In this document: one piece after another, positions 10,992 through 54,525 of the stretch
How the letters are laid out: every line of letters begins with the position of its first letter
Numbering within the stretch: the stretch's first letter is position 1
Assembly: GCF_000010345.1 (NCBI RefSeq)
Contig: NC_009663.1
Location: forward strand, 1,860,001-1,924,000
Reading direction: 5' to 3'
From: Sulfurovum sp. NBC37-1
GTDB taxonomy: Bacteria > Campylobacterota > Campylobacteria > Campylobacterales > Sulfurovaceae
DNA: 64,000 nt
Position numbers and translations under genes: made by a program
The notes under the pieces: model-generated
What the model saw: the letters and a program-made list of their open reading frames with translations, nothing else
What the model was told of the DNA's origin: nothing
The model's database searches: none

Positions 10992-11447
10992 ATGGGCAAA
11001 ACTATCAAAAACATTATCACCGGAAAAGAAATCGTAAAACCTGATCCCGTCGATGAAGAAGTTCCTTTCGACGGTGGTGTCATGATCACTGAAACGGACA
11101 CAGCTGGTATCATTACCTATGCCAACCGTAAGTTCAGAGAATTAACCGGCTATTCAAAAGAAGAGCTGATTGGGTCGCCGCATAGTATTAACAGACATCC
11201 GGATATGCCCAAAGCTGCATTCAAAGGCCTATGGGAGATAATCAAGAAAGGGAACTACTGGGAAGGTCTTGTCAAAAATATGAACAAAGATGGGAAGTAC
11301 TATCTTGTTATAGTCTGGATCAAACCGAAATTTGATGAAGATGGAAATATTGTAGGGTACATTGCCGGACGTAAGATAGCCGATCGAGATGCAATGAACA
11401 AAGCACTTGCACAGTACAAAGAAATGAAGGCCGCTGAAGAAGCATAG
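10992..11447 (+). CDS. Single-domain PAS sensor protein (Aer-like)
   Basis: A 151-residue soluble protein made of one PAS domain (about 25-140). The run TYANRKFRELTGYSKEELIG, HPDMPKAAFKGLW and WEGLVKNMNKDGKYY is the pattern of Aer-type PAS domains that bind FAD and sense redox state or oxygen. No output domain is fused, so it must act through a partner, perhaps a chemoreceptor or kinase. GGAG precedes the ATG; TATAAT at 10929-10934 is a possible -10 box. The neighbours are metabolic and give no hint of the partner. Confidence 0.85.
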   Translation: MGKTIKNIITGKEIVKPDPVDEEVPFDGGVMITETDTAGIITYANRKFRELTGYSKEELIGSPHSINRHPDMPKAAFKGLWEIIKKGNYWEGLVKNMNKDGKYYLVIVWIKPKFDEDGNIVGYIAGRKIADRDAMNKALAQYKEMKAAEEA

Positions 11448-15002: not shown

Positions 15003-15100
15003 GCAAAATAACATTAGAGTGGATACAAATTCGTATAAAATCAGATAAAAAGAGTCCTTTTTTCTTGATTAGAATCATCAAAATGCTCAGCTGATTTCAT

Positions 15101-15106
15101 TATACT
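15101..15106 (+). promoter_or_regulatory. -10 box giving a leaderless or near-leaderless mRNA
   Basis: TATACT ends 5 bases before the ATG of the ODP-kinase. If it is used, transcription would begin at or within a base or two of the start codon. No ribosome-binding sequence is visible upstream of this ATG, which agrees with a leaderless message. Confidence 0.35.
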
Positions 15107-15111
15107 TTTCT

Positions 15112-16641
15112 ATGGATTTTACACAAGCCGTAAAGATAGCGAAATACATTTACTGGGTGGGAATGTATCTGGAAAATGATCCTTTTCAGTGTCACCCCTA
15201 CTTCATAGAGAACGGTAATGAATCAATATTGATAGACCCCGGTTCCATGCTTGAATTCGAAGCCGTTGTCAGGAAGGTCAACACGATCTCTTCGATGAAA
15301 AACATCAAGTATATCATTCTGCACCATCAGGACCCGGACCTGGCCGCTGCAGTTCCCCAGATGGAAAAACTGATAGACCGCTCCGATCTTCTTGTCATTA
15401 CGCACAGCAGAATGGTTCCCCTGGTCAAACACTATCTTATCAAGTCAAATTACTACGAGATAGACAAACATGACCATCAGCTTGTAAGCGGCAATCTTCA
15501 CCTGCAGTTCATCACTACACCCTACTGCCACTCTCCCGGAGCCTTCGTAACGTATGAGCCCTCCACAAAAACACTCTTTTCAGGTGATATCTTCGGGGGC
15601 ATTGAAGAGTCGTGGGAATTCTTCGCAGGTGATGACTACTTCGAGAAAGCCAAACCGTTCCATGCCGAATATATGCCCAGCAGGGATATCTTCAATTATT
15701 CGCTCTCGAAGATAGAAAAGCTCGACCTGAATCTGATTGCACCGCAGCACGGATCTATCATACAAAAAGAGAAGATCACAGATCTGATCGAACAGATGAA
15801 GGGACTTGAATGCGGTCTGTACATTGAAAGGGAGTACAAAGACAGGCTCATTCATACTATCGAAGAGCTCAAAGAGAAAGACCTTGCACTGCGTGCCTCC
15901 ATGAAGGAACTTAAAGAGAAAGAAGAACTCCTTTTCCAGAAAGCAAAAATGGCCGATATGGGAGAGATGATAGCCAATATTGCACATCAGTGGCGCCAAC
16001 CGCTCGCAATGAACAATACCCTGATCTCTATTCTCAAAGAAAAGAATCGGCAGGATATCCTGCAGAGCGGGGAACTGGCCAGAAAGCTTCAGGAAATGGA
16101 GAGTAATATTCAGTACATGTCAAAGACCATAGATGATTTCATGCATTTCTATCACCCTGAAAAAGAGAAAAACCGTTTTCTCATTTCAGAAGTGCTTCAA
16201 CAGGCACTTGATATTACAAACCCTATGCTGAAAAAAGCAGGGATCGATCTTACATTCGAAAACATTTCCGAAGAAGCTGCCGAGGGATATATGAACGAAT
16301 ACATGCAGGTGATCATTTCCATTTTGCACAACGCGAAAGACACTCTCCTGTACAGAAAGGTCAAGGACCCCCATATAGCGCTCAGGCTCTATGAAAAAGA
16401 CGAAGATGTACTTCTTGAGATCAGCGACAATGCAGGTGGAGTACCCCAAGAGGACATACACCGTATCTTCGACCCCTATTTTACCACCAAACACAAATCG
16501 CTCGGTACGGGACTGGGGCTTTACATCTCAAAAATGATCATAGAGAAGAATATGGAGGGAACACTCTCTGTCTCCAATACCCGGGAGGGTGCCTTGTTCA
16601 GGATTGTGATGCCAAAAGCAGGAAAAACGGATGCAGCATAA
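15112..16641 (+). CDS. Histidine kinase with N-terminal ODP/metallo-beta-lactamase sensor domain
   Basis: Soluble 509-residue kinase with no membrane segments. Residues 1-235 form a metallo-beta-lactamase fold of the ODP/flavodiiron type: the likely metal ligands are H72-x-D74-x-D76, H140, D159 and H213, in the order and spacing of flavodiiron proteins. ODP domains bind non-haem di-iron and sense oxygen or iron. A charged coiled coil (about 237-280) leads to the dimerisation domain with H292 in AHQWRQPL, then the ATPase domain with N407 (LHNAKD), D439NAGG and GTGLGL (465-470). The last ligand of the FprA motif (His after D76) is Leu here. The gene overlaps its response regulator by 11 bases, so the two form a cognate pair. 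Inferred role: cytosolic oxygen/redox sensing. Confidence 0.88.
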   Translation: MDFTQAVKIAKYIYWVGMYLENDPFQCHPYFIENGNESILIDPGSMLEFEAVVRKVNTISSMKNIKYIILHHQDPDLAAAVPQMEKLIDRSDLLVITHSRMVPLVKHYLIKSNYYEIDKHDHQLVSGNLHLQFITTPYCHSPGAFVTYEPSTKTLFSGDIFGGIEESWEFFAGDDYFEKAKPFHAEYMPSRDIFNYSLSKIEKLDLNLIAPQHGSIIQKEKITDLIEQMKGLECGLYIEREYKDRLIHTIEELKEKDLALRASMKELKEKEELLFQKAKMADMGEMIANIAHQWRQPLAMNNTLISILKEKNRQDILQSGELARKLQEMESNIQYMSKTIDDFMHFYHPEKEKNRFLISEVLQQALDITNPMLKKAGIDLTFENISEEAAEGYMNEYMQVIISILHNAKDTLLYRKVKDPHIALRLYEKDEDVLLEISDNAGGVPQEDIHRIFDPYFTTKHKSLGTGLGLYISKMIIEKNMEGTLSVSNTREGALFRIVMPKAGKTDAA

Positions 16642-17320
16642 CAAGATCACTGATGTCTCCATTCTGATCGCAGAAGATGAAGAGGCACTTCTTGACTCCA
16701 TGACAGAGTACCTCGAACTCTTTTTTGAAAAGGTGTACAGGGCAAAAGATGGTCAGGAAGCGTACCAAAGTTACTTGAAACACCATCACGATATTATTAT
16801 TGCCGATATCAACATGCCGCGTCTCGACGGACTTGCTATGATAAGAAAGATCAGAGAAAATGACCAAAAAACGAAGATCATCATCACTTCGGCACACTCC
16901 GATCAGGAGAGACTTTTGCAGGCCATAGAGCTGCATTTAGTCAAGTACCTCATCAAACCTGTACAGAGTGACTGGCTCAAAACCCTTCTCTTGTCACTGG
17001 TCGACGAGTTGAGGTCCCAAAGGCATACACTTGCATTAAAAGAGGCTTTTTACTGGGATACTTTGAATCAAAAACTGTTTCATAATGCTGAAGAGATAGC
17101 GCTGAAGCCCAGGGAACGCAAAGTCATGTCACTGCTCTGCTCACATCCGAACCAGAGTGTTTCAGCCATAGACATATACAATCACCTATATGAAGACCAA
17201 CCGGAACGGGACTTCTCCTCCCATGCTATCGCTTCCCTGATGAAACGGCTGAGACAGAAACTGCCCAAAGATACGATTAAAAGTGCCTACGGGGTAGGTT
17301 ATATTTTACAAACAAAATAA
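16631..17320 (+). CDS. OmpR-family response regulator
   Basis: A 229-residue transcription factor: receiver domain (about 8-122) with the acidic pocket E15-D16, phospho-acceptor D59 (IIIAD), T86/S87 and K109-P110, followed by a winged-helix Trans_reg_C DNA-binding domain (about 135-229; RERKVMSLLCSHPNQSVS, ASLMKRLRQKLPKD, AYGVGYIL). It starts inside the 3' end of the ODP-kinase gene and should be phosphorylated by it. AGGAAA precedes the ATG. The target genes are unknown; a palindromic operator just downstream (17353-17367) is one candidate site. Confidence 0.93.
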   Translation: MQHNKITDVSILIAEDEEALLDSMTEYLELFFEKVYRAKDGQEAYQSYLKHHHDIIIADINMPRLDGLAMIRKIRENDQKTKIIITSAHSDQERLLQAIELHLVKYLIKPVQSDWLKTLLLSLVDELRSQRHTLALKEAFYWDTLNQKLFHNAEEIALKPRERKVMSLLCSHPNQSVSAIDIYNHLYEDQPERDFSSHAIASLMKRLRQKLPKDTIKSAYGVGYILQTK

Positions 17321-17323
17321 AAA

Positions 17324-17342
17324 TAGAGAAAAATCTCTTTTT
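17324..17342 (+). terminator. Short stem-loop with T run after the response regulator
   Basis: AGAGA (17325-17329) pairs with TCTCT (17334-17338), loop AAAA, followed by four to five T. The stem is only 5 A/T-rich base pairs, so termination would be weak. Confidence 0.4.
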
Positions 17343-17352
17343 GACAAGATTT

Positions 17353-17373
17353 GACAAACTCTTTGTCTATAAT
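17353..17373 (+). promoter_or_regulatory. Promoter with operator palindrome abutting the -10 box
   Basis: A perfect TATAAT at 17368-17373 directly follows a perfect inverted repeat GACAAA-CTC-TTTGTC (17353-17367). TTGACA occurs at 17341 and again at 17351, at spacings (21 and 11) that are not canonical for a -35 box. No protein-coding gene follows on the plus strand, so this promoter would drive the small RNA candidate at about 17380. Confidence 0.45.
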
Positions 17374-17379
17374 TTTATT

Positions 17380-17495
17380 CAAGAGGTGGAAAAAGTATAT
17401 CTCCCCCCCCTTGTATATATGACAAAGACACCTCTGAGTACCACACTAACCAAACTGTAAAAAAGAGTGTTGCAAACAAACTCTATTCTTTATTC
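17380..17495 (+). ncRNA. Candidate small RNA
   Basis: The gap between the response regulator and ppx holds a promoter-like -10 box and then two possible stems: AGAGGTG (17382-17388) with CACCTCT (17429-17435), whose loop contains a run of eight C, and AGAGT (17464-17468) with ACTCT (17480-17484) followed by a T-rich stretch. No open frame of note exists. The 12-base GGTGGAAAAAGT near its 5' end recurs at 24231. The evidence is structural only, so this is tentative. Confidence 0.22.
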
Positions 17496-17525
17496 CTTTT
17501 GTTCACAACGGGAAGTGTGGCTATT

Positions 17526-24456: not shown

Positions 24457-25566
24457 ATGAAACAAATTGCTGTAACAGGTGCATCATTGGGTCATATTGA
24501 TTTTACTCCGACCATTATTATCGGATTCTACCGGAAAAGTCAGAAAACACTTTTTTCCGCGGAATATCAAATACTCAGAGAACGTTTCCCCCTTGCTGAC
24601 ATCATAGCCTGCAGCAGTGCAGCAAACATTGCCGACGAACTTCCCTATGTTGAATCACGTGATCAGTTCCCCAGTGTCTATCTTTGTCTAGAAATGGAGA
24701 AAGGTACTTTCGCTGTTGACATATTTTCTGAAGATGTCACTCCCTCCCTCAATGTAGACAATAAGAAAAAATATCAGGTCATTATGTTAAGCAGTTTCAG
24801 TTCTTCCACACTAGAAAAAACACTCTCTTCATTCCCCAGCACAATAACTACTCAAAAGATTTTTGGTGGTGTGTCAGGTACAGATATTTCCTCCGAGGAT
24901 ACAGGTGAACTCTTTTATAACGGTGTATTCTATAACCGGCATATACTGTTATGGCTGATCGATAAAAACAAATACAAAATAGAGGGTATGAGTATGCACC
25001 TGTTCAGACCGGTAGGACTCCCTCTTCAAATAACCAAAGCAGAGAAAAACAAAATTTATGAACTTAATAATAAACCGGCACAGGATGTAATTGAATCATT
25101 CGCCGGAGAGTTAAAAGAATCAGCGATCAACAACTTTGCCTATCCTCTTTTTTTACAAAAAGAAGCAGATGGGGACTGGAACAGTGCACCACTGGCCTCA
25201 ATGACAAGCGTAAACAAAAAGGACAAAAGCATTCTTCTCTACAGAGAAGTATGTGAAAAAGAGTATGTAAAGATCGCTATCATGATAAGCCAGCAGGACC
25301 AGTTAAAACGCCTAAGACGACTCTATACCTTTGCACCGTCCAAAAGTGTAGCTATTCTGTTCAACTGTATCGGTATAGCAAAGAACCTTTCCATGATGGA
25401 ATATCTCTATCTTGAAGATATAAAAAAGCACCTGGGAATTACATTTATCGGTGCGCATACATTCGGGGAGATAGGTCCTCCTGCTACTTCGAAAAAACGA
25501 AGTGGGACACTGCTTCACAATCAAACCATGACTATTGCACTCATCTCCGAAAAGGAAGTATACTGA
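24457..25566 (+). CDS. FIST-domain sensory protein
   Basis: A 369-residue cytosolic protein made of FIST_N (about 25-200) and FIST_C (about 210-345) domains, which are thought to bind small ligands such as amino acids. Characteristic pieces are ADIIACSSAANI, FGGVSGTD, and near the end FIGAHTFGEIGP followed by LLHNQTMTIALIS. It has no output domain; its stop TGA overlaps the ATG of the hybrid kinase by one base (TGATG), so it probably delivers its signal to that kinase. AAGGAG precedes the ATG. The gene is visibly AT-richer than the metabolic genes around it. Confidence 0.85.
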   Translation: MKQIAVTGASLGHIDFTPTIIIGFYRKSQKTLFSAEYQILRERFPLADIIACSSAANIADELPYVESRDQFPSVYLCLEMEKGTFAVDIFSEDVTPSLNVDNKKKYQVIMLSSFSSSTLEKTLSSFPSTITTQKIFGGVSGTDISSEDTGELFYNGVFYNRHILLWLIDKNKYKIEGMSMHLFRPVGLPLQITKAEKNKIYELNNKPAQDVIESFAGELKESAINNFAYPLFLQKEADGDWNSAPLASMTSVNKKDKSILLYREVCEKEYVKIAIMISQQDQLKRLRRLYTFAPSKSVAILFNCIGIAKNLSMMEYLYLEDIKKHLGITFIGAHTFGEIGPPATSKKRSGTLLHNQTMTIALISEKEVY

Positions 25567-27428
25567 TGCTCAATATCGTACAGGAAAAATATTTCATATC
25601 TGAGATCATGAAAAGATTCGGGTATTCAGAAAAGAATGCACAACAAACTGTCAAGAAGCTTGAAGCCCTGATCTTTCATCAGGATGAAAAGATTCTTTAT
25701 GACTTTCAATATGAAATATTTATCCAAAATAACCCCAATTACACCCGTACTCTGGTAGAATTTCTCTTTCAGAGCTTTTCCTACTTGTATGATACGGCAC
25801 AGAACAGAGAAGAGAAGAATAGACTTCGGGAAAGTATCAGCAAACTTTTTCATTTTATCTTCATTGAGCGGTGCATTTACGCCAAACAGATTGAAGCACA
25901 GTCTGTTGCCGCGCAGCATATTTTAAAAAATGTAAGCTCTCAGCTGAATACTGTACTCAAAACACAGGAACGAATGATCGCCAATCTTTCGCATGAAATG
26001 CGTACATCACTCAATGCCATTACCGGATATCTAACTATACTTGAAGAGAGCAAAGCATTACGGGGGGAAGGGAAATTTCATTTGAAAAAAGCAATGAACG
26101 GCGCTGAAAGTCTTCAATCACTTGTTAAAGATATTTTAAACATTACCAAACTTAACAGCGGACAACTGGAGATACAAAAAGAATTTTTCGCGTTAGATGA
26201 AATGCTACTGGAATGTATTGACCATCTTTCCCTGGAGATAAAAAACCGGTACCATATCGATTTTCAGTTTAGCTCAACATTTATGCCTATATTTGTGCAT
26301 GGCGACAAAATGCATATTATGGAAATCCTCATCAACTTTCTTAGTAATGCATTCAAATATACTGAAACAGGTTTTATCAAGCTCTCTATGGATTACCGCA
26401 TAGAAGCAGGTGGCGTACGTACAGTATTCAGTGTTTCAGATAGCGGTATAGGTATGACACCAGAGCAGACAGAGGATGTGTTTTCTCCGTACAGTCGTTA
26501 TAAAAAAGAGAAAGACGGACTTGGGTTAGGTATGCATATAACCAAACAACTTTCAGAAAAACTGGGTGGAGAACTGAATGTTCAAAGTACTGTCGGCAAA
26601 GGAACAACCTTTTCTTTTAGCTGTCTTTTTGAGAAAACCAGACCCCAGGAACTGAATTTTGAAGGGAAAAAGATCTGTTTCTATATTGGGGAGATGGAGA
26701 TCAGTACCTATCTACAAGAAAAGATCCATTTCCTCGAAAAGTGCGGTGCGAAGATAATACACTTTAAAAAAGAAAGTACCCTGATCAATTACCTTTTGAA
26801 TACGAAAGAAGATACACCAAATATTATTTCCATTATGGCAGAAACAGAAGCCTATACCAAATTCGATGCACTGATCTACTATCTTAGAAGTGCAAAGCAT
26901 TTTAACAATACTATATTTCTAGCTGAAAATATGCACCAGCACCTCTCCTTAAAGTATTTTGACGACTTGTATGAATACTGCGCACCCCTGTCACGCTACG
27001 AAAAGCTGTTAAAAAGCAGGACCTTGCTTCATACGAACAAAGAAAAGCTTACTCTGTCGGTTCTTGTTGTTGACGACACAGAAACAAATTTGGATATTTT
27101 CCAGCTTTTTATCCAAAAAGAGTATCCTGACGCAATAATTGATCTGGCAGGTGGCGGATATGAGGCTATCGGTATGTGCAAGATAAAAACATATGATGTG
27201 ATCTTTCTCGATCTTAAAATGCCAGGAATGGACGGATTTGAAGTCATAAAAAAGCTCAAAATACTCAATGGTCCTTTACCGATAATCTATGCTTTTACTG
27301 CTGATGTCTATAAATCCACCTATGAAAAAGTAGAAGAGGCCGGGTTTGCCGGAATACTTGAAAAACCATTGAACCCGGAAATTCTTTATGAAATTTTAAC
27401 AAGGATAGAACATGCAAAAACTACTTGA
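25566..27428 (+). CDS. Soluble hybrid histidine kinase / response regulator
   Basis: A 620-residue cytosolic kinase. After a helical N-terminal region (1-125) comes the HisKA domain with the phospho-His in ANLSHEMRTSLNAI (about 143), the HATPase domain (INFLSNAFKYT, SDSGIGMT, GLGLGMHI), a poorly conserved receiver-like segment (about 365-485), and a functional receiver at the C-terminus (about 495-615; VVDDTE, phospho-acceptor Asp in FLDLKMPGMDG near 549, and LEKPLN). It has no own sensor domain, so the upstream FIST protein is the likely input. It overlaps the HPt gene by 17 bases, making a FIST-kinase-receiver-HPt phosphorelay. Confidence 0.9.
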   Translation: MLNIVQEKYFISEIMKRFGYSEKNAQQTVKKLEALIFHQDEKILYDFQYEIFIQNNPNYTRTLVEFLFQSFSYLYDTAQNREEKNRLRESISKLFHFIFIERCIYAKQIEAQSVAAQHILKNVSSQLNTVLKTQERMIANLSHEMRTSLNAITGYLTILEESKALRGEGKFHLKKAMNGAESLQSLVKDILNITKLNSGQLEIQKEFFALDEMLLECIDHLSLEIKNRYHIDFQFSSTFMPIFVHGDKMHIMEILINFLSNAFKYTETGFIKLSMDYRIEAGGVRTVFSVSDSGIGMTPEQTEDVFSPYSRYKKEKDGLGLGMHITKQLSEKLGGELNVQSTVGKGTTFSFSCLFEKTRPQELNFEGKKICFYIGEMEISTYLQEKIHFLEKCGAKIIHFKKESTLINYLLNTKEDTPNIISIMAETEAYTKFDALIYYLRSAKHFNNTIFLAENMHQHLSLKYFDDLYEYCAPLSRYEKLLKSRTLLHTNKEKLTLSVLVVDDTETNLDIFQLFIQKEYPDAIIDLAGGGYEAIGMCKIKTYDVIFLDLKMPGMDGFEVIKKLKILNGPLPIIYAFTADVYKSTYEKVEEAGFAGILEKPLNPEILYEILTRIEHAKTT

Positions 27429-33026: not shown

Positions 33027-33749
33027 ATGAGAGTAAAAGCTGTGATCGCTTATGACGGAAGTGCCTTTCAGGGATTTCAGAAGCAAACCCGTACAAACAG
33101 GACCGTAACCACTACCATAGAAAATGCTCTCGCAGATCTTCAGATTATCTCACCCCTTACAGGTAGCGGACGTACTGATGCAGGTGTGCATGCAAGCGGA
33201 CAGGTTATCCATTTTGACCTACCTGAATTCTGGTCTGACCTAAACAGATTAAAGAACAGCCTCAACAAAAAACTCTCAACGATACGCTTCAAACATATCT
33301 CTGCTGCTCCTGATGATTTTCATGCACGATTCTCTGCCAAAAAACGTATCTACCGATATATATTCAAAGAGAATGAGCTCTCTGTATTCGAGAGAAAATA
33401 TGTTGCACATTACAGCAGTTTTGATCCGGATATCCTCAAAAGAGCACTGTTGATGTTCGTAGGTGAACATGACTTTATCTATTTCCACAAAACAGGTTCC
33501 GACATACATACCACGGTCAGAAAGATTTATGATGCGAATTACAGACAAGAGGGAAAATATCACTTCCTCTATTTCACTGCAAACGGATTTTTGCGTTCAC
33601 AGGTAAGAATGATGGTAGAGTCGGCAATGCTCTGTGCGCAGAATGAACTTACACTTGAGCAGTTGCAAAAGCAGATAAATGCGGAAAAACGGTATCACTC
33701 CAGACTTTCCCCTCCCGAAGGACTATATCTGGCAAGAATCTTATACTGA
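33027..33749 (+). CDS. truA: tRNA pseudouridine(38-40) synthase
   Basis: A 240-residue enzyme that isomerises uridines 38-40 in tRNA anticodon stems. YDGSAFQGFQKQ near the start, the catalytic Asp in SGRTDAGVHASGQ (about 50), YRYIF and FLRSQVRMMV are the family motifs. AAAAGGA precedes the ATG. Its last 9 bases overlap the end of the convergent NIT-kinase gene, so the two transcripts run into each other. Confidence 0.95.
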   Translation: MRVKAVIAYDGSAFQGFQKQTRTNRTVTTTIENALADLQIISPLTGSGRTDAGVHASGQVIHFDLPEFWSDLNRLKNSLNKKLSTIRFKHISAAPDDFHARFSAKKRIYRYIFKENELSVFERKYVAHYSSFDPDILKRALLMFVGEHDFIYFHKTGSDIHTTVRKIYDANYRQEGKYHFLYFTANGFLRSQVRMMVESAMLCAQNELTLEQLQKQINAEKRYHSRLSPPEGLYLARILY

Positions 33750-36700
33750 GGCTTCCAACTTTTTCTTTATCTCCTCGACATCAGGCTCCATACTTAAAGT
33801 TTCACAGCAAATATTACCGATCTCTTTCTCTGAAACAAAAAGGAAGGGTCTTGCACCTGCATCATGCACGATATCGGCTATCAGACAGTGTATCTGCATA
33901 AATGAATCGGCATCAAACAGTACAAAGTGGTAATAGTTGTTCTCCACTTTATCCATAAAATCTATGGTAGAGTCTGCAACATCTACGGTATATCCCAAAT
34001 TTCGCAACATTGTTGCATATACTTTTGATGACAAAGGCTCTTCATGATGTAGAAGAATATCTGCTTCAATGGTTATTGCTTCAACAGGTGTCTCCATTTC
34101 TTCTTCCTTTTCAGAAGAGGCTTCAGTTTCAGGTATTTCGTCATTTGGACTCAAATCTTCTTCTGTAGGCACTTGCGTTTGTACCATAGATGACTTTACT
34201 TCCTCCTCAGCTATCTCTTCTTTATTGTTTATCATTTTATTTTCAAAATACTTCTCTAACAACTGTGTTAGATGTTCTAGTACAAGTGGTTTGGACAAGT
34301 AATCATCCATACCTGCCTTGATATACTTCTCTTTATCTCCCTGCAATGCATTGGCAGTCAATGCTACGATAGGAATATGATGCTTGCGGTTTTTTTCTTC
34401 ATAGGTCAGGATCTCTTTTGTCGCATCGATCCCTCCCATCACAGGCATCTGTACATCCATAAAGATCATATCATAGTTATTTTTCTGGCGTAAATGCAGT
34501 GCCTCTTCACCATTATTGGCAAGCGTAACTTGTAAACCCAGTTTGTTCAGAACATTCAAAATAAGTTTTTGATTGATAACATTGTCTTCTGCTACCAGTA
34601 TGTTAAGGCCTTTGAAGAATCTCTTTTCGTTCTCTTCCTCATGCCGTGATACATCCACAGTATTTATTTCGCTGTAAACAACTTCAAGTGCTTTGTATGT
34701 TTTGGTGAGATTGACCGGTTTATAGACAACTTTGTCAATCTTATCCATTAGGGATTCAATTTGATGTTTTTTATCGCTTGTTGTGAAAAGTATCGTTCTT
34801 ATATACAAATCAAGATATTTTTCCAGTTCATCTTCCCGCTGGAAATAGCTATGGTCTAGAAAGAGCAGATCAGGCAGAGCATCCGTTTTTTCCTGCAAAA
34901 TTTCATCCTCGTCATAGATCATAAATTTTGCATCTGTAGCACCCACATACTCTTGGAGATTGCGTGCAAGAATACTCTCTGTATTTTTATCCGGAAGTAC
35001 CGTTGCTACAGTAAATCCGTTCATGACAGGTCTTGGCAGTACAGAAGCGGATTCACCTTTTTGCAAGGTCAGAGAGAAGAAGAACACCGATCCTTCACCT
35101 TCTTCACTTTCAATATCCAGTTCACCGCCCATAAAGGCAGTCAGTTTTACGGAAATAGCCAACCCCAGACCCGTACCGCCGTATTTTCTGCTGGTACTGA
35201 CATCTGCCTGGGAGAAGGGATCGAAGATTTTGTCTTTCTGTTCTTCAGTAATACCAATTCCTGTATCTCTTACAGAGAATTTCATAGTAACGTTTTCTTC
35301 CGTTTCATTCATCTTCTCTATACGAACATCAATGCTTCCATGCGTACTTGTGAACTTAATCGCGTTACTGATTAGATTGACAATGATTTGAGAAATTTTA
35401 GTCGGATCACCGATCAATGGTGTAGGAAGACCCGGATCTATAAATACCCCAAGTTCAATATCTTTTTCCGCCGCCCTTGCCCCGTAAGACTCAATAGCGG
35501 ATTCAAACTTCTCTATTGCATTGAAAGGAATGCTTTCAAGCTCAATCTTGTCTGCTTTGATTTTCGAGAGATCCAGAATATCATTCACGATCGCAAGCAG
35601 GTTGTCGGAACTGTTCTCTATGACGGTAATGAACTCTTCCTGATCAGGAGTAGGATTTGTAGATTTCAACAACTGGGTAAAGCCAACGATTCCATTCAGA
35701 GGTGTACGAATTTCATGAGACATATTTGCAAGGAAGAGGTCTTTTGCCTCATTGGCTTCTTGTATGGTATTGACGAGGAATCGATAAATATTATTGATAT
35801 CATGTCTGTCGATAAGTTTCTGCAATTCTTTTTGCTGCTCTTTGTTAAGAACAGCTTCTATATCTCTCAAAGTATCATCGAAGAGCTGTTTGTCTCTATT
35901 GATGTTGTAATTGACTATCAGCATAACCAAAAGTACAAAAAGTGCAAAAAGTGTACCTGCTCCATACTGCATTAAACTGTTTTCGCTTTCTATGCTGCGA
36001 TCTGCCGCCTTAACCTGTACCGTCCCCAACAGGATATGCTGTGCCCGTATCAGATAGTCTGTTTTCTTCCTGCTCTGCTTCATCCACTCTTTTGGCGTTA
36101 TCTGATACTCTCCTGTCTCAGCATCGTAAAGTACTTTAATACGTTCAGGATTCCCTATTTTCCCATAGGCGTCTGCCGAAACAATCGATACAAGACTTTT
36201 CTTCAGGTTATAATCCGTAATCTGTTTCAAAGAGGGCAAAGCATCATGCAAAAGCAACTGATCCCAGGTTTGAAGATCTTCATCTTTCATAGGGTATCTT
36301 CCATTGATCACATAGAGTATTCCACTGTCTTCCAGCAGAACATTTCCATTGGCTTTCAAATAATCAGCATAGCTTGAAAGATACGCTTTCATAGCAGGAT
36401 CTTGTTCCCCTGCTGTAATCACTCTTATCGCTCCAATAAGAGGCTGAAATATCTCCTGATGATAAAGGGTATAAAAAATATCTTTATAGTCGGACCCCAT
36501 CGTATCGATCTTGTTTCTGACCTCCGAAAGTTTCTTTTTAACCATAGCAATTCTTTTGCTATGCAGTCTCAGGTTTGCATTCTGTCTGACATACATTTCC
36601 AAAGAACCAACGGTATGGTCTACAGCTTCACGGCTTGCCTTCAATTCACTGTCAGCAGCAGTACCGCCACTTCCCATATAGCTTGCACTGTCCAAGCGCT

Positions 36701-36887
36701 CTTTGGCAAGGGCATCTATTGTCTGGCTGAGCAGTTCAACAAAACGGACTTCTTTTTTACTCTCTTCGGCCTTCCTGTAATCATTATACGAAAAATATGT
36801 CTGGTAGGATACTCCTCCTAAACCGGCAAGAATCAGTACAATCAGAAAGGAAAAAATATTTTTATTGTTTAACAGATTCATCTTCAT
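33741..36887 (-). CDS. NIT-domain membrane hybrid histidine kinase
   Basis: A 1048-residue inner-membrane sensor. One span at about 12-32, a periplasmic region of about 280 residues with the nitrate/nitrite-sensing (NIT) pattern (LAKERLDSASYMG near 62-74), and a second span at about 315-337. Cytosolic part: HisKA with His near 388 (ANMSHEIRTPLNGI), HATPase (LISNAIKFT, DTGIGIT, GTGLGLAI), a degenerate receiver (about 640-760), an active receiver (about 770-890; VAEDN, phospho-acceptor Asp in FMDVQMPVMGG near 810, LSKPL), an acidic linker and a second degenerate receiver (about 950-1048). It is the last gene after four exported PilJ-like proteins, 6 bases from the previous one, suggesting that they present its signal. 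Confidence 0.88.
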   Translation of the reverse strand: MKMNLLNNKNIFSFLIVLILAGLGGVSYQTYFSYNDYRKAEESKKEVRFVELLSQTIDALAKERLDSASYMGSGGTAADSELKASREAVDHTVGSLEMYVRQNANLRLHSKRIAMVKKKLSEVRNKIDTMGSDYKDIFYTLYHQEIFQPLIGAIRVITAGEQDPAMKAYLSSYADYLKANGNVLLEDSGILYVINGRYPMKDEDLQTWDQLLLHDALPSLKQITDYNLKKSLVSIVSADAYGKIGNPERIKVLYDAETGEYQITPKEWMKQSRKKTDYLIRAQHILLGTVQVKAADRSIESENSLMQYGAGTLFALFVLLVMLIVNYNINRDKQLFDDTLRDIEAVLNKEQQKELQKLIDRHDINNIYRFLVNTIQEANEAKDLFLANMSHEIRTPLNGIVGFTQLLKSTNPTPDQEEFITVIENSSDNLLAIVNDILDLSKIKADKIELESIPFNAIEKFESAIESYGARAAEKDIELGVFIDPGLPTPLIGDPTKISQIIVNLISNAIKFTSTHGSIDVRIEKMNETEENVTMKFSVRDTGIGITEEQKDKIFDPFSQADVSTSRKYGGTGLGLAISVKLTAFMGGELDIESEEGEGSVFFFSLTLQKGESASVLPRPVMNGFTVATVLPDKNTESILARNLQEYVGATDAKFMIYDEDEILQEKTDALPDLLFLDHSYFQREDELEKYLDLYIRTILFTTSDKKHQIESLMDKIDKVVYKPVNLTKTYKALEVVYSEINTVDVSRHEEENEKRFFKGLNILVAEDNVINQKLILNVLNKLGLQVTLANNGEEALHLRQKNNYDMIFMDVQMPVMGGIDATKEILTYEEKNRKHHIPIVALTANALQGDKEKYIKAGMDDYLSKPLVLEHLTQLLEKYFENKMINNKEEIAEEEVKSSMVQTQVPTEEDLSPNDEIPETEASSEKEEEMETPVEAITIEADILLHHEEPLSSKVYATMLRNLGYTVDVADSTIDFMDKVENNYYHFVLFDADSFMQIHCLIADIVHDAGARPFLFVSEKEIGNICCETLSMEPDVEEIKKKLEASV

Positions 36888-51054: not shown

Positions 51055-54000
51055 ATGAAAACTTTTAATACATACTATGAAAACCATGAAACATTGCAAA
51101 CTTTTGTTGAGATACACAGCATACAGGACGCACCTTCCCTTTTAATCCAGGTATTTACCTCGGAAAACAATCCATCTTACATTCAAAAACTTCTCAATGA
51201 ACTGACTGCCTTCTTACCCCAGGCTGTCATTATCGGGAGCACTACAGATGGTGAGATAATGAATGGAAAAGTCTCTACACGCAAAACGGTATTGAGTTTC
51301 ACCCGGTTTGAACACACGCAGCTTAAAGCAGATGCAGCCATACATCAAAAAAATGGCTATTTTTCAGGTCAGGACCTGGCAAAATCATTAATCCGGGAAG
51401 ATACCAGACTGCTTATTGCCTTTGTAGATGGCCTTCACACCAATGGAGAAGCATTTCTAAGCGGTATTGATTCCGTTTCTGGTGACGTCATCGTCTCAGG
51501 AGGCCTGGCCGGAGACAATGGATCTCTTACAGAAACATACGTATTTACAAAAGACCATATCATTCAAAAAGGCGCAGTAGCAGTATCGTTCAGCAGTCAT
51601 TCCCTGATAATACACAATGCCTACAATTTTAACTGGTACACAATAGGGAAAGAACTGACGGTTACCCACGCTGCAGATAACCGTGTCTACACCATAAACA
51701 ACAAACCGGCTACTGAAATCTACAGTTACTATCTGGGTGAAGAGGTAGCAGCAGTACTGCCTTCCATAGGTATTGAGTTTCCTCTTATTACTGTACGTAA
51801 CGGTATCGAGGTTGCACGTACAATAGTATCTAAAGAAGATGACGGTTCCCTGGTATTTACCGGTAATTTGCACACAGGGGAGAAAGTACAGTTCGGATAC
51901 GGCAATACATTGGATCTGTTAACACATGCAGGAGATATATATCATCAACTGCAGAGAAAACCTTCCGAAGCAATTTTCATCTATTCCTGTGGGGCACGCA
52001 AACATATTATGCCAGATATGATTCACAAAGAGATAGAGCCGTTACAGGCCATAGCCCCCACTTCCGGATTTTTTACGTATGGCGAATTCTATACAGACAA
52101 AAGAAAAGAATTGTTAAATCAAACTATGACGATTGTTTCCCTGAGTGAAGAGGTTACCATATCAGAATCCAAAACACTTCCGTCATTGCATACTGACAGT
52201 AAATTTTCCATCATGGATGCACTCACAAATCTGTTGAACAGAACAAATCAGGAACGTATGGAAGAAGACTTAATTGCACTTGAAAAGTCGCAAGATGGTA
52301 TTTTGGTTCTTGAAAATGATACATTTCTTCAATGCAACCAAAAAATACTTGATATGTTCGGGTACAGTACCACAGAAAATTTTGTCAAGGCATATCCCCA
52401 TAAGCTTTTCCCGGGAAAACAGCCTGATGGTAGCTATTCATCAGTAAAAATGGAGAAAATGAAGGCACTGACAAAAAAAAATGGAAGCCATCAGTTTGAA
52501 TGTCTGAATGTAAAGCAAAACGGAGAACCTTTCTGGGTAAATATCATTCTTAGCTACCGTATGATTAACGAAAAAGAGATTTTCCATATGGTCTATCGGA
52601 ACGTTACCGATAAAAAGAATCAGGAAAATGAAAACAGTTTCATTACAAACCGTATGGAGTTGGCTCTTGCGGGAAGCAAAACTGCTGTTTTGGACTGGGA
52701 CTTTCGTGACAACAGTATGTATATTTCTCCCAGTTGGAAAGAGATGCTTGGATTTAGGGATGATGAACTGCCGAATGCTCCCTCAAGCTGGTTCAGACGT
52801 GCTCACACGGAGGACAAAAAAACTATTTTGGCCATGTTGAGAGAACATGAAAAAAATAAAATACGCTTTTTTGAAAGCAACCACCGCCTCAAACATAAAG
52901 ATGGCCATTGGGTCTGGGTTTTAGGTAGAGCACAAATACTCTTTGACGAAAACGGAAAAAAGGTTCGTATGATCGGTACGCATACCGATATCACTAAAGA
53001 AAAAGAATCACAGATCAAGTATTTTCAGCAGGTACAGATCATGGAACAAATCCATGACGGTATTGTCACTACAGACCTGGAGGGAAACGTAACCAGCTGG
53101 AACAAGGGTGCAGAAGAACTGTTCGGATACAGCCAGAGTGAAATAATAGGGAAACACATTTCTCTGATTTATCGCAAAAAAGATATTCCGGGCATCAAAG
53201 AGCGTATTCGTGCATCACTGGAAGAGACAGGTCTTTACCAAGGTGATTTGACCTTTATTACAAAATCCAAAAAAATCATACCGGTATCTCTGTCTCTTTC
53301 TTTATTGAAGGATGAGCACGGAAATGTAGCGGGAAGGATAGGTATAAACCAGGATATCACCCAACGTAAAAAAGATGAAAAATCTCTCCTGAAAGCCAAA
53401 CGAAAAGCAGAAGAATCAGCCAAATCAAAATCTGAATTCCTTGCCAATATGAGCCACGAGATCAGAACCCCGTTGAGTGCTATTTTAGGTTTTATCGATT
53501 TGCTTAAAAAAGAAAATATAGAAAAAAAAGCAAAAGAATATGTTGATATTATTGATACTTCCAGCAAAGGATTGCTGAAAATTATAGAAGATATTTTAGA
53601 TTTTTCAAAAATAGAAAGCGGAAAACTCGAAATTGACAAAATAGACTTTAGTCCCAAAATAGAATTCGAAACCATCATACATCTTTTTCTTGCAAAATGT
53701 GCGGAAAAAGACATTGCCTTAACGCTGATTCTGGATGAAAGTCTTCCGGAAACCATCCATACTGATCCGTTGAGAATAAAACAGATTATTTCCAACCTCC
53801 TGAGTAATGCAATTAAATTTACGGATCAAGGCAAAAAAATAACCGTTACCATCAACTACAAAAACGGCTTCTTGAATGTATCTGTTAAGGATGAGGGAAA
53901 AGGCATAGCCAAAGAAAAACTTTCTCACATATTTGAATCTTTTGCCCAGGAAGACAGTTCAACGACAAGAGAATACGGTGGAACCGGCCTGGGACTGACA

Positions 54001-54525
54001 ATATCTTACAGACTTGTCAAAATTTTGGGCGGAGAACTGCATGTCAAAAGTAAGGTAGGTGCCGGAAGCGAGTTTTATTTTTCCATTAAAGTTTCAGAAG
54101 GTAAAGATATTTTGAAAACAAAAGAGTCTATGGGAAAAATGACATTCGATAACAAAAAAGTTCTTTTGGTAGAAGATGTCAAGACCAATCAACTCTTTAT
54201 GTCTATCATATTGGAAGGATTGCATTTTGAAGTTGCTACGGCAGATAACGGTATAGAAGCAGTAGAGGCATTCAAGCAAAACAGCTATGATCTCATTTTG
54301 ATGGATGAGCATATGCCAAAAATGAACGGCATAGAGGCTACCAAACAGATTCTGGCCATAGAGGGTGAAAATAATTTGCCGCATACGCCGATCATTGCTT
54401 TAACTGCCAATGCCATCAAAGGCGACAGGGAGAGATTTTTAAAAGCCGGCATGGATGAGTATGTCACAAAACCCATCAATCAAAATATTTTTGTTAAAGT
54501 CTTAAGAAAAGTTTTGTTTGCATAG
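51055..54525 (+). CDS. FIST-PAS hybrid histidine kinase
   Basis: A 1156-residue soluble kinase with its sensors in the same chain. FIST_N (about 25-225; IIGSTTDGEIMNG, VSGGLAGDNG), FIST_C (about 230-365; IYSCGARKHI, TSGFFTYGEF, LLNQTMTIVSL), then three PAS domains (about 415-520, 535-650, 660-775), HisKA with His near 804 (ANMSHEIRTPLSAI), HATPase (LLSNAIKFT, DEGKGIA, GTGLGLTI) and a C-terminal receiver (about 1030-1150; VEDVKTN, phospho-acceptor Asp in LMDEHMPKMNG near 1083, VTKPIN). No membrane segment. It is the fused counterpart of the separate FIST and kinase genes at 24.5-27.4 kb. AT-rich like that operon. Confidence 0.9.
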   Translation: MKTFNTYYENHETLQTFVEIHSIQDAPSLLIQVFTSENNPSYIQKLLNELTAFLPQAVIIGSTTDGEIMNGKVSTRKTVLSFTRFEHTQLKADAAIHQKNGYFSGQDLAKSLIREDTRLLIAFVDGLHTNGEAFLSGIDSVSGDVIVSGGLAGDNGSLTETYVFTKDHIIQKGAVAVSFSSHSLIIHNAYNFNWYTIGKELTVTHAADNRVYTINNKPATEIYSYYLGEEVAAVLPSIGIEFPLITVRNGIEVARTIVSKEDDGSLVFTGNLHTGEKVQFGYGNTLDLLTHAGDIYHQLQRKPSEAIFIYSCGARKHIMPDMIHKEIEPLQAIAPTSGFFTYGEFYTDKRKELLNQTMTIVSLSEEVTISESKTLPSLHTDSKFSIMDALTNLLNRTNQERMEEDLIALEKSQDGILVLENDTFLQCNQKILDMFGYSTTENFVKAYPHKLFPGKQPDGSYSSVKMEKMKALTKKNGSHQFECLNVKQNGEPFWVNIILSYRMINEKEIFHMVYRNVTDKKNQENENSFITNRMELALAGSKTAVLDWDFRDNSMYISPSWKEMLGFRDDELPNAPSSWFRRAHTEDKKTILAMLREHEKNKIRFFESNHRLKHKDGHWVWVLGRAQILFDENGKKVRMIGTHTDITKEKESQIKYFQQVQIMEQIHDGIVTTDLEGNVTSWNKGAEELFGYSQSEIIGKHISLIYRKKDIPGIKERIRASLEETGLYQGDLTFITKSKKIIPVSLSLSLLKDEHGNVAGRIGINQDITQRKKDEKSLLKAKRKAEESAKSKSEFLANMSHEIRTPLSAILGFIDLLKKENIEKKAKEYVDIIDTSSKGLLKIIEDILDFSKIESGKLEIDKIDFSPKIEFETIIHLFLAKCAEKDIALTLILDESLPETIHTDPLRIKQIISNLLSNAIKFTDQGKKITVTINYKNGFLNVSVKDEGKGIAKEKLSHIFESFAQEDSSTTREYGGTGLGLTISYRLVKILGGELHVKSKVGAGSEFYFSIKVSEGKDILKTKESMGKMTFDNKKVLLVEDVKTNQLFMSIILEGLHFEVATADNGIEAVEAFKQNSYDLILMDEHMPKMNGIEATKQILAIEGENNLPHTPIIALTANAIKGDRERFLKAGMDEYVTKPINQNIFVKVLRKVLFA

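Follow-up and report, generated by a model that had tools for sequence, protein, structure and literature searches.

A histidine kinase with a predicted di-iron (ODP) sensor domain at its N-terminus in Sulfurovum and its relatives: a candidate oxygen or nitric oxide check on anaerobic metabolism with a putative small RNA output

ODP is known as a chemotaxis sensor and, as Muok is said to have found in 2019, binds O2 as a stable peroxo species. The chemotaxis ODPs of Thermotoga maritima and Treponema denticola (6qrq, 6qwo, 6r9n, 6qnm) are separate proteins that act through a chemoreceptor and CheA, whereas the protein considered here, ODP-HK, carries its ODP domain fused to HisKA and has a transcription regulator of its own; both kinds share the fold, the motifs H-x-D-P-D-[L/I/V] and PQHG, and the lack of a flavodoxin domain. 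In the T. maritima ODP, a Gln from motif 5 replaces the third His of motif 2 (PMC7785958). The flavodiiron NO/O2 reductases resemble ODP-HK in their metallo-beta-lactamase fold and in five of the six core ligand positions, but they combine HxExD-H and (P/T)LHG with a flavodoxin domain. Because ODP-HK has HxDxD-L and PQHG and no such domain, turnover like that of the reductases is not expected from it. By what is known of these families, hemerythrin-domain and globin-coupled O2 sensors, as well as the NO sensors NorR and NNR/DNR, likewise rely on metal-based gas sensing at the aerobic/anaerobic switch, but with sensor folds unrelated to ODP. A 2019 review described the regulation of respiration in Campylobacterota as largely unknown, with no orthologues of ArcA, FNR and NarP found (PMC6682613).

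ODP-HK is encoded in the window, by which we mean the whole stretch of 64,000 nucleotides from Sulfurovum sp. NBC37-1 that was analysed (NC_009663.1, positions 1,860,001 to 1,924,000; Table 1). We consider it rather probable, from sequence comparison, that ODP-HK and its regulator form a cytoplasmic two-component system that would read the state of a di-iron site, would be made anaerobically, and whose regulator would control an RNA and, in relatives, the nor-nir or nrdDG genes.

Table 1. Features of the ODP-HK locus, in coordinates of the window.
Feature	Position	Strand	Basis or remark
FNR/NNR-type box TTGATTAGAATCAT	15065..15078	+	conserved before nearly all Sulfurovum orthologues
-10 element TATACT, 22 bp past the box, 5 bp before ATG	15101..15106	+	predicted leaderless transcript
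ODP-HK, soluble histidine kinase with a predicted di-iron (ODP) sensor domain at the N-terminus	15112..16641	+	509 aa ORF, Pfam, AlphaFold2 model
ODP sensor domain, residues 1-235; H72, D74, D76, H140, D159, H213 and Q212	15112..15816	+	PF19583, ligand columns
Signal helix/coiled-coil linker, residues 236-275	15817..15936	+	heptad-sized length change; PAS insertion in some relatives
HisKA (H292) and HATPase_c (N407, D439, GTGLGL) kinase core, residues 276-505	15937..16626	+	Pfam, alignment
OmpR/PhoB-family response regulator gene	16631..17320	+	Response_reg and Trans_reg_C (Pfam)
Candidate regulator box TTGACA-N4-TTGACA, PhoB-box-like 10-bp direct repeat	17341..17356	+	directly behind the regulator gene
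-10 element TATAAT, 11 bp past the repeat, of the predicted promoter for the RNA	17368..17373	+	spacing alike in orthologues
Conserved structured RNA, 5' hairpin: P1 AGAGGUG/CACCUCU, variable P2, C-rich loop UCCCCCCCCUUGU	17381..17437	+	
Second long stem CCACACU...AGUGUGG, ends at convergent ppx	17441..17520	+	alignment, single-sequence fold

Residues 25-214 of ODP-HK match the ODP family over the full length of its profile (PF19583, positions 1-194 of 194; E 2.5e-59; 200.8 bits, against a curated cut-off of 27.2 bits). HisKA (283-348) and HATPase_c (398-502) follow in the Pfam matches, in keeping with an earlier note on this DNA that had described a lactamase-type sensor domain joined directly to a kinase. 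The two-component signature is complete, with H-box, N-box and G-boxes in ODP-HK and a receiver and a winged helix in the regulator. Neither the Pfam matches nor the AlphaFold2 model (mean pLDDT 77.5) contain a transmembrane segment, which agrees with the soluble kinase of that note, and Pfam gave no match to a flavodoxin domain. Among PDB sequences, ODP-HK matches two oxygen-binding di-iron proteins best, 6qrq and 6qnm. Structure prediction, which the note had proposed as a check, led to the same proteins: the model is closest in Foldseek to the T. maritima ODP (6qwo, 6qrq; target-normalised TM 0.73-0.77), and HK853-type kinases rank next. The regulator gene does overlap the kinase ORF as had been noted, by 11 bp, and this overlap, together with the conserved pairing of the two genes, suggests that phosphotransfer would run from ODP-HK to this regulator. 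The coiled-coil linker was borne out as well, since the lengths between the C234 region and the H-box differ by one heptad: across the 37 PAS-less orthologues measured there are 51 residues in 20 of Sulfurimonadaceae type and 58 in 17 of Sulfurovaceae type, with no other value. These lengths fit a phase-locked coiled coil that would have changed in one event, dividing two families. In four relatives (L047-L050), a PAS domain is inserted into the linker.

A phylogenomic search for the same domain order, also put forward in the earlier note, found a close ODP-HK orthologue in 24 of the 397 genomes of the class. The ODP domains of these proteins form one clade in the tree, in Sulfurovaceae and Sulfurimonadaceae. 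Public assemblies under the titles Sulfurovum, Sulfurimonas, Sulfuricurvum and Campylobacterales contain more copies, none was found in a search of plasmids, and the only other ODP match in the genome of the window is weak and under the cut-off (C1:509040). More distant ODP fusions, in Campylobacterota, Desulfobacterota and Pseudomonadota, end in GGDEF. ODP is in this sense an input module that can be moved between outputs: it is joined to kinases and, in the genomes sampled, much more frequently to diguanylate cyclases. In the literature searched, we found no description of an ODP-cyclase family, nor of any kinase or diguanylate cyclase with an ODP or metallo-lactamase fold.

Sulfurovum orthologues conserve the motif TTGAT-N4-ATCAT upstream of the kinase gene. 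Of the 17 orthologues in which the box can be recognised, 16 have a gap of 22 bp from the box to TATACT, which is the class-II spacing of FNR-type promoters, and one has 23 bp. To judge from the start codon, which in most Sulfurovum orthologues lies only 5-9 bp past TATACT, the transcript is probably leaderless. Over the whole genome (2,562,277 bp), TTGATNNNNATCA has 82 matches, versus 7 for the reversed control. Such boxes stand before napA, nosZ, ahbAB (siroheme decarboxylase), moaA, the bc1 Rieske gene and nrdD, with a close variant before norCB, and the same genome has two CRP/FNR-family genes above the cut-off, one of them beside ahbAB and the nap cluster. Because ODP-HK shares the FNR-type box with nap, nor, nos and heme-d1 genes and with moaA, bc1 and nrdD, it looks like a member of the anaerobic/denitrification regulon.

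In the lineage of the window, the ODP-HK/regulator pair lies between ilvB (ilvBN) and ppx, neighbours that are uninformative on function, and nirS is far from ODP-HK in the genome. In Sulfurimonadaceae, including Sulfurimonas, the pair closes the operon norC-norB-nirS-cyt c-nirJ-nirF-nirE. It comes and goes as a cassette, since in four loci (L155-L158) this operon has nirE as its last gene and passes straight to the next gene, the pair being cleanly absent. Elsewhere (loci L047-L050 and genome G357), nrdD and nrdG come after the pair. Altogether, nirS is present in 23 of the 24 genomes with ODP-HK versus 28 of the 373 others (Fisher p 3.7e-22, kinship ignored), and the sole ODP-HK genome without it is G357, with the order ODP-HK-RR-nrdD-nrdG. 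Since relatives keep the pair beside denitrification or nrdDG genes and the RNA described below, the system probably signals the presence of oxygen or nitric oxide to the cell.

Between these two ligands, the nor-nir linkage favours NO. A reading in which the physiological ligand is nitric oxide from NirS, and the di-iron site sets norCB-nirS expression, is fairly unlikely in our judgement, yet it is the rival that we take most seriously: the pair ends the nor-nir operon, ODP-HK co-occurs almost totally with nirS, and flavodiiron relatives are known as a family to reduce NO. The nrdDG linkage favours O2 instead, as the pair also accompanies the genes for this oxygen-sensitive enzyme, even in the genome that lacks nirS, and the solved ODPs, to go by the title of 6r9n, bind O2 in the form of a stable peroxo species.

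Behind the regulator gene, the window copy of the direct repeat reads TTGACA-AGAT-TTGACA, followed after 11 bp by TATAAT. Like PhoB/OmpR-type sites, it has a direct-repeat period of about 10 bp and ends some 10-11 bp before the -10 element; it differs from them in the sequence TTGACA-N4-TTGACA and in its predicted output, a small RNA or nrdD. The pattern occurs 27 times in 373 kb, versus 0-1 times in shuffles. In 2.34 Mb of loci it occurs 35 times, in each case (35/35) downstream of an ODP-HK-type regulator gene and no more than 1.6 kb away from it, although these loci were chosen around ODP genes and the boxes do not represent 35 independent cases, because some loci overlap or repeat a genome. 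In four relatives (L047-L049 and L174), the regulator gene is separated from nrdD by such boxes, as many as three in series. In the genome of the window, of which about 170 kb was searched, no TTGACA-type box was found before nor, nir or nrdD. Among Sulfurimonadaceae, five loci keep the TTGACA-type box (L116, L117, L169, L045 and L174); most others are without it and have GTTTCA-N4-GTTACA before the nor operon (norCB-nirS) instead. As a target of the regulator, this nor-operon repeat is suggestive only. Placed on the NirS tree, it shows in Sulfurimonas mostly one gain, and one loss, in a genome also without ODP-HK. The form TGTTTC-N5-GTTACA was rejected as proof that the regulator binds at nor promoters, because it goes back mostly to that one gain, is present in a genome without ODP-HK (G306), and is missing from L116, L117 and L188.

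Past the -10 element, the RNA starts with AAGAGGTG, and continues with a variable stem and a C-rich loop, which reads UCCCCCCCCUUGU in the window; CACCTCT comes next. Stem P1 is nearly invariant across relatives, and in P2 two pairs are changed on both sides (5 compensatory cells), with a covariation score that 0 of 500 shuffles reach and that is lost when the pairing partner is slid. The claim of an RNA rests on this conservation and covariation, since the inner-stem energy z-scores against inner shuffles are weak (mean -1.0). A covariance model (R1) found the RNA only behind ODP-HK-type regulators in the 756 kb searched, Rfam 15 gave no match over the gathering score in six relatives (L047-L050, L174 and L154), and in L039 the box and the RNA were lost together. 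The arms of the second stem have changed in the alignment yet still pair, and this stem is probably the 3' part or the terminator of the RNA. In Sulfurovum, ppx beyond it runs the opposite way, so that the box promoter must serve an RNA. Regulatory RNAs such as RepG of Helicobacter pylori, in a related phylum, have an unpaired C-rich loop like the one found here, whereas structure and location differ.

It is nonetheless conceivable, and on the whole unlikely, that another regulator binds the direct repeat and that the putative RNA is an untranslated stretch or a terminator shared by the regulator gene and ppx. The assignment of the repeat to this regulator comes from sequence patterns, and the second stem, which ends exactly at ppx, could be such a shared terminator; but every one of the 35 boxes lies behind an ODP-HK-type regulator gene, the same box precedes nrdD in other relatives, and the near-invariance of P1 and the compensatory changes in P2 speak against this reading as well. 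Separately, three direct-repeat promoters follow one another in the interval from the regulator gene to nrdD in both L047 (8543-9015) and L048 (8542-9130); the two small RNAs apparent there share the AGAGGTG/CACCTCT closing stem and differ in their insides.

The six metal ligands listed in the earlier note are all confirmed and align with those of 6qrq and 6qnm. Together with L77 and Q212, they are invariant in 33 of 33 full-length ODP-HK orthologues, and the ODP is the best-conserved part of the protein (mean conservation 0.81 versus 0.61 for the catalytic domain). What did not hold is the suggestion that Leu77 tunes the site. Side by side, the intact ODPs compared have H-x-D-[PS]-D-[L/I/V] and PQHG, and flavodiiron proteins from the same phylum H-x-E-P-D-H and LHG; Val follows the second Asp in both solved ODPs, and Leu, Ile or Val does so in every intact ODP compared. 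Because these residues are normal there and the Gln of PQHG serves as a ligand, Leu77 and Gln212 belong, by this alignment, to an ordinary ODP site and not to a tuned variant. The earlier interpretation is thus retained for the direct fusion with an intact set of di-iron ligands and given up for the tuning residue. The direct ODP-kinase fusion, the intact ligands and the single-clade family make a metal-dependent gas or iron sensor the natural reading of ODP-HK. A sensor of iron or redox state instead of gas, with the kinase switched by loading or loss of Fe(II), strikes us as quite improbable: the title of a paper cited in PMC9665402 does describe the Treponema ODP as an Fe(II) and oxygen sensor, but the neighbourhoods read, whose genes were partly annotated, showed no linkage to Fur-type, ferritin or iron-uptake genes. 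Degenerate ODP domains do exist (L143, L144), but the strict conservation of ligands and domain makes it most improbable that the ODP of ODP-HK is a degenerate or structural domain without metal and that some other input sets the kinase.

For the two-component system that we favour, the sequences show the domains, the ligand residues, the conserved linkage, the boxes and the conservation of the RNA, and from these we infer the metal, the ligand, the direction of signalling, the binding of the regulator and the function of the RNA, in the following scheme. At low oxygen, an FNR/NNR-type regulator would turn on ODP-HK and its regulator along with the denitrification genes, as their common box suggests. 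The ODP domain would carry two irons, and binding of O2, or possibly NO, would alter the domain, a change relayed through the coiled coil to the autophosphorylation of H292. Once phosphorylated, the regulator would bind as a dimer to TTGACA-N4-TTGACA, which would stand in for the -35 element. In Sulfurovum, the window included, the box would drive the small RNA with its C-rich loop; in relatives, the box would act before nrdDG, and the related repeat GTTTCA-N4-GTTACA before norCB-nirS. With this system, the switch to anaerobic life would be subject to a second check, one based on metal. New beyond the earlier note are the single clade of orthologues, the linkage to denitrification and nrdDG genes, the box in the promoter and the putative RNA behind the regulator gene. 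Our opinion is evenly balanced on whether the whole is an undescribed cassette of vent and sulfur-oxidising Campylobacterota, in which an ODP kinase and an OmpR regulator, the latter driving a new family of sRNAs with a C-rich loop, would provide an O2/NO check on denitrification and anaerobic nucleotide reduction. ODP-HK, lying within the denitrification operon itself in relatives, is a concrete candidate regulator with a predicted DNA site and RNA output and, if this is confirmed, would add a non-haem di-iron sensor to the means by which denitrifiers perceive oxygen or NO.

Several other ODP proteins were encountered. ODP-GGDEF diguanylate cyclases (L256-L285 and others; L126 7431-9065, L131 8897-10648) are common in Pseudomonadota and also present in Desulfobacterota and Campylobacterota. 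Single proteobacterial cases combine ODP with a hybrid histidine kinase (L271 1375-3705) or with a class III nucleotide cyclase (L267 1399-3711). The ODPs of L143 (6347-7846, minus strand; weak GGDEF match) and L144 (7004-8518, plus strand) have no metal ligands (QNYEPDT, PRYG/PKYG) and sit in an operon for an ABC transporter of branched-chain amino-acid type, and L124 has intact ODP-GGDEF relatives of these proteins in the same transporter operon. Stand-alone ODP proteins of about 250 aa lie beside a receiver-domain protein of about 500 aa (L140 7644-9903, minus strand; L141 6060-8307; L142; L146-L150), which gave no further Pfam match in the one scanned; L141 also encodes a CBS-PAS-GGDEF-EAL protein. 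A small single-PAS protein of the window (10992-11447) has similar counterparts adjoining ODP-GGDEF (L124) and stand-alone ODP (L142). The window also contains two sensory systems with FIST domains: in one (24457-27428) a FIST protein has a hybrid kinase next to it, and the other (51055-54525) is a FIST-PAS-hybrid kinase. In the same 64 kb as ODP-HK there is, in addition, a hybrid histidine kinase whose NIT domain is of the nitrate/nitrite sensing kind (33741-36887, minus strand).
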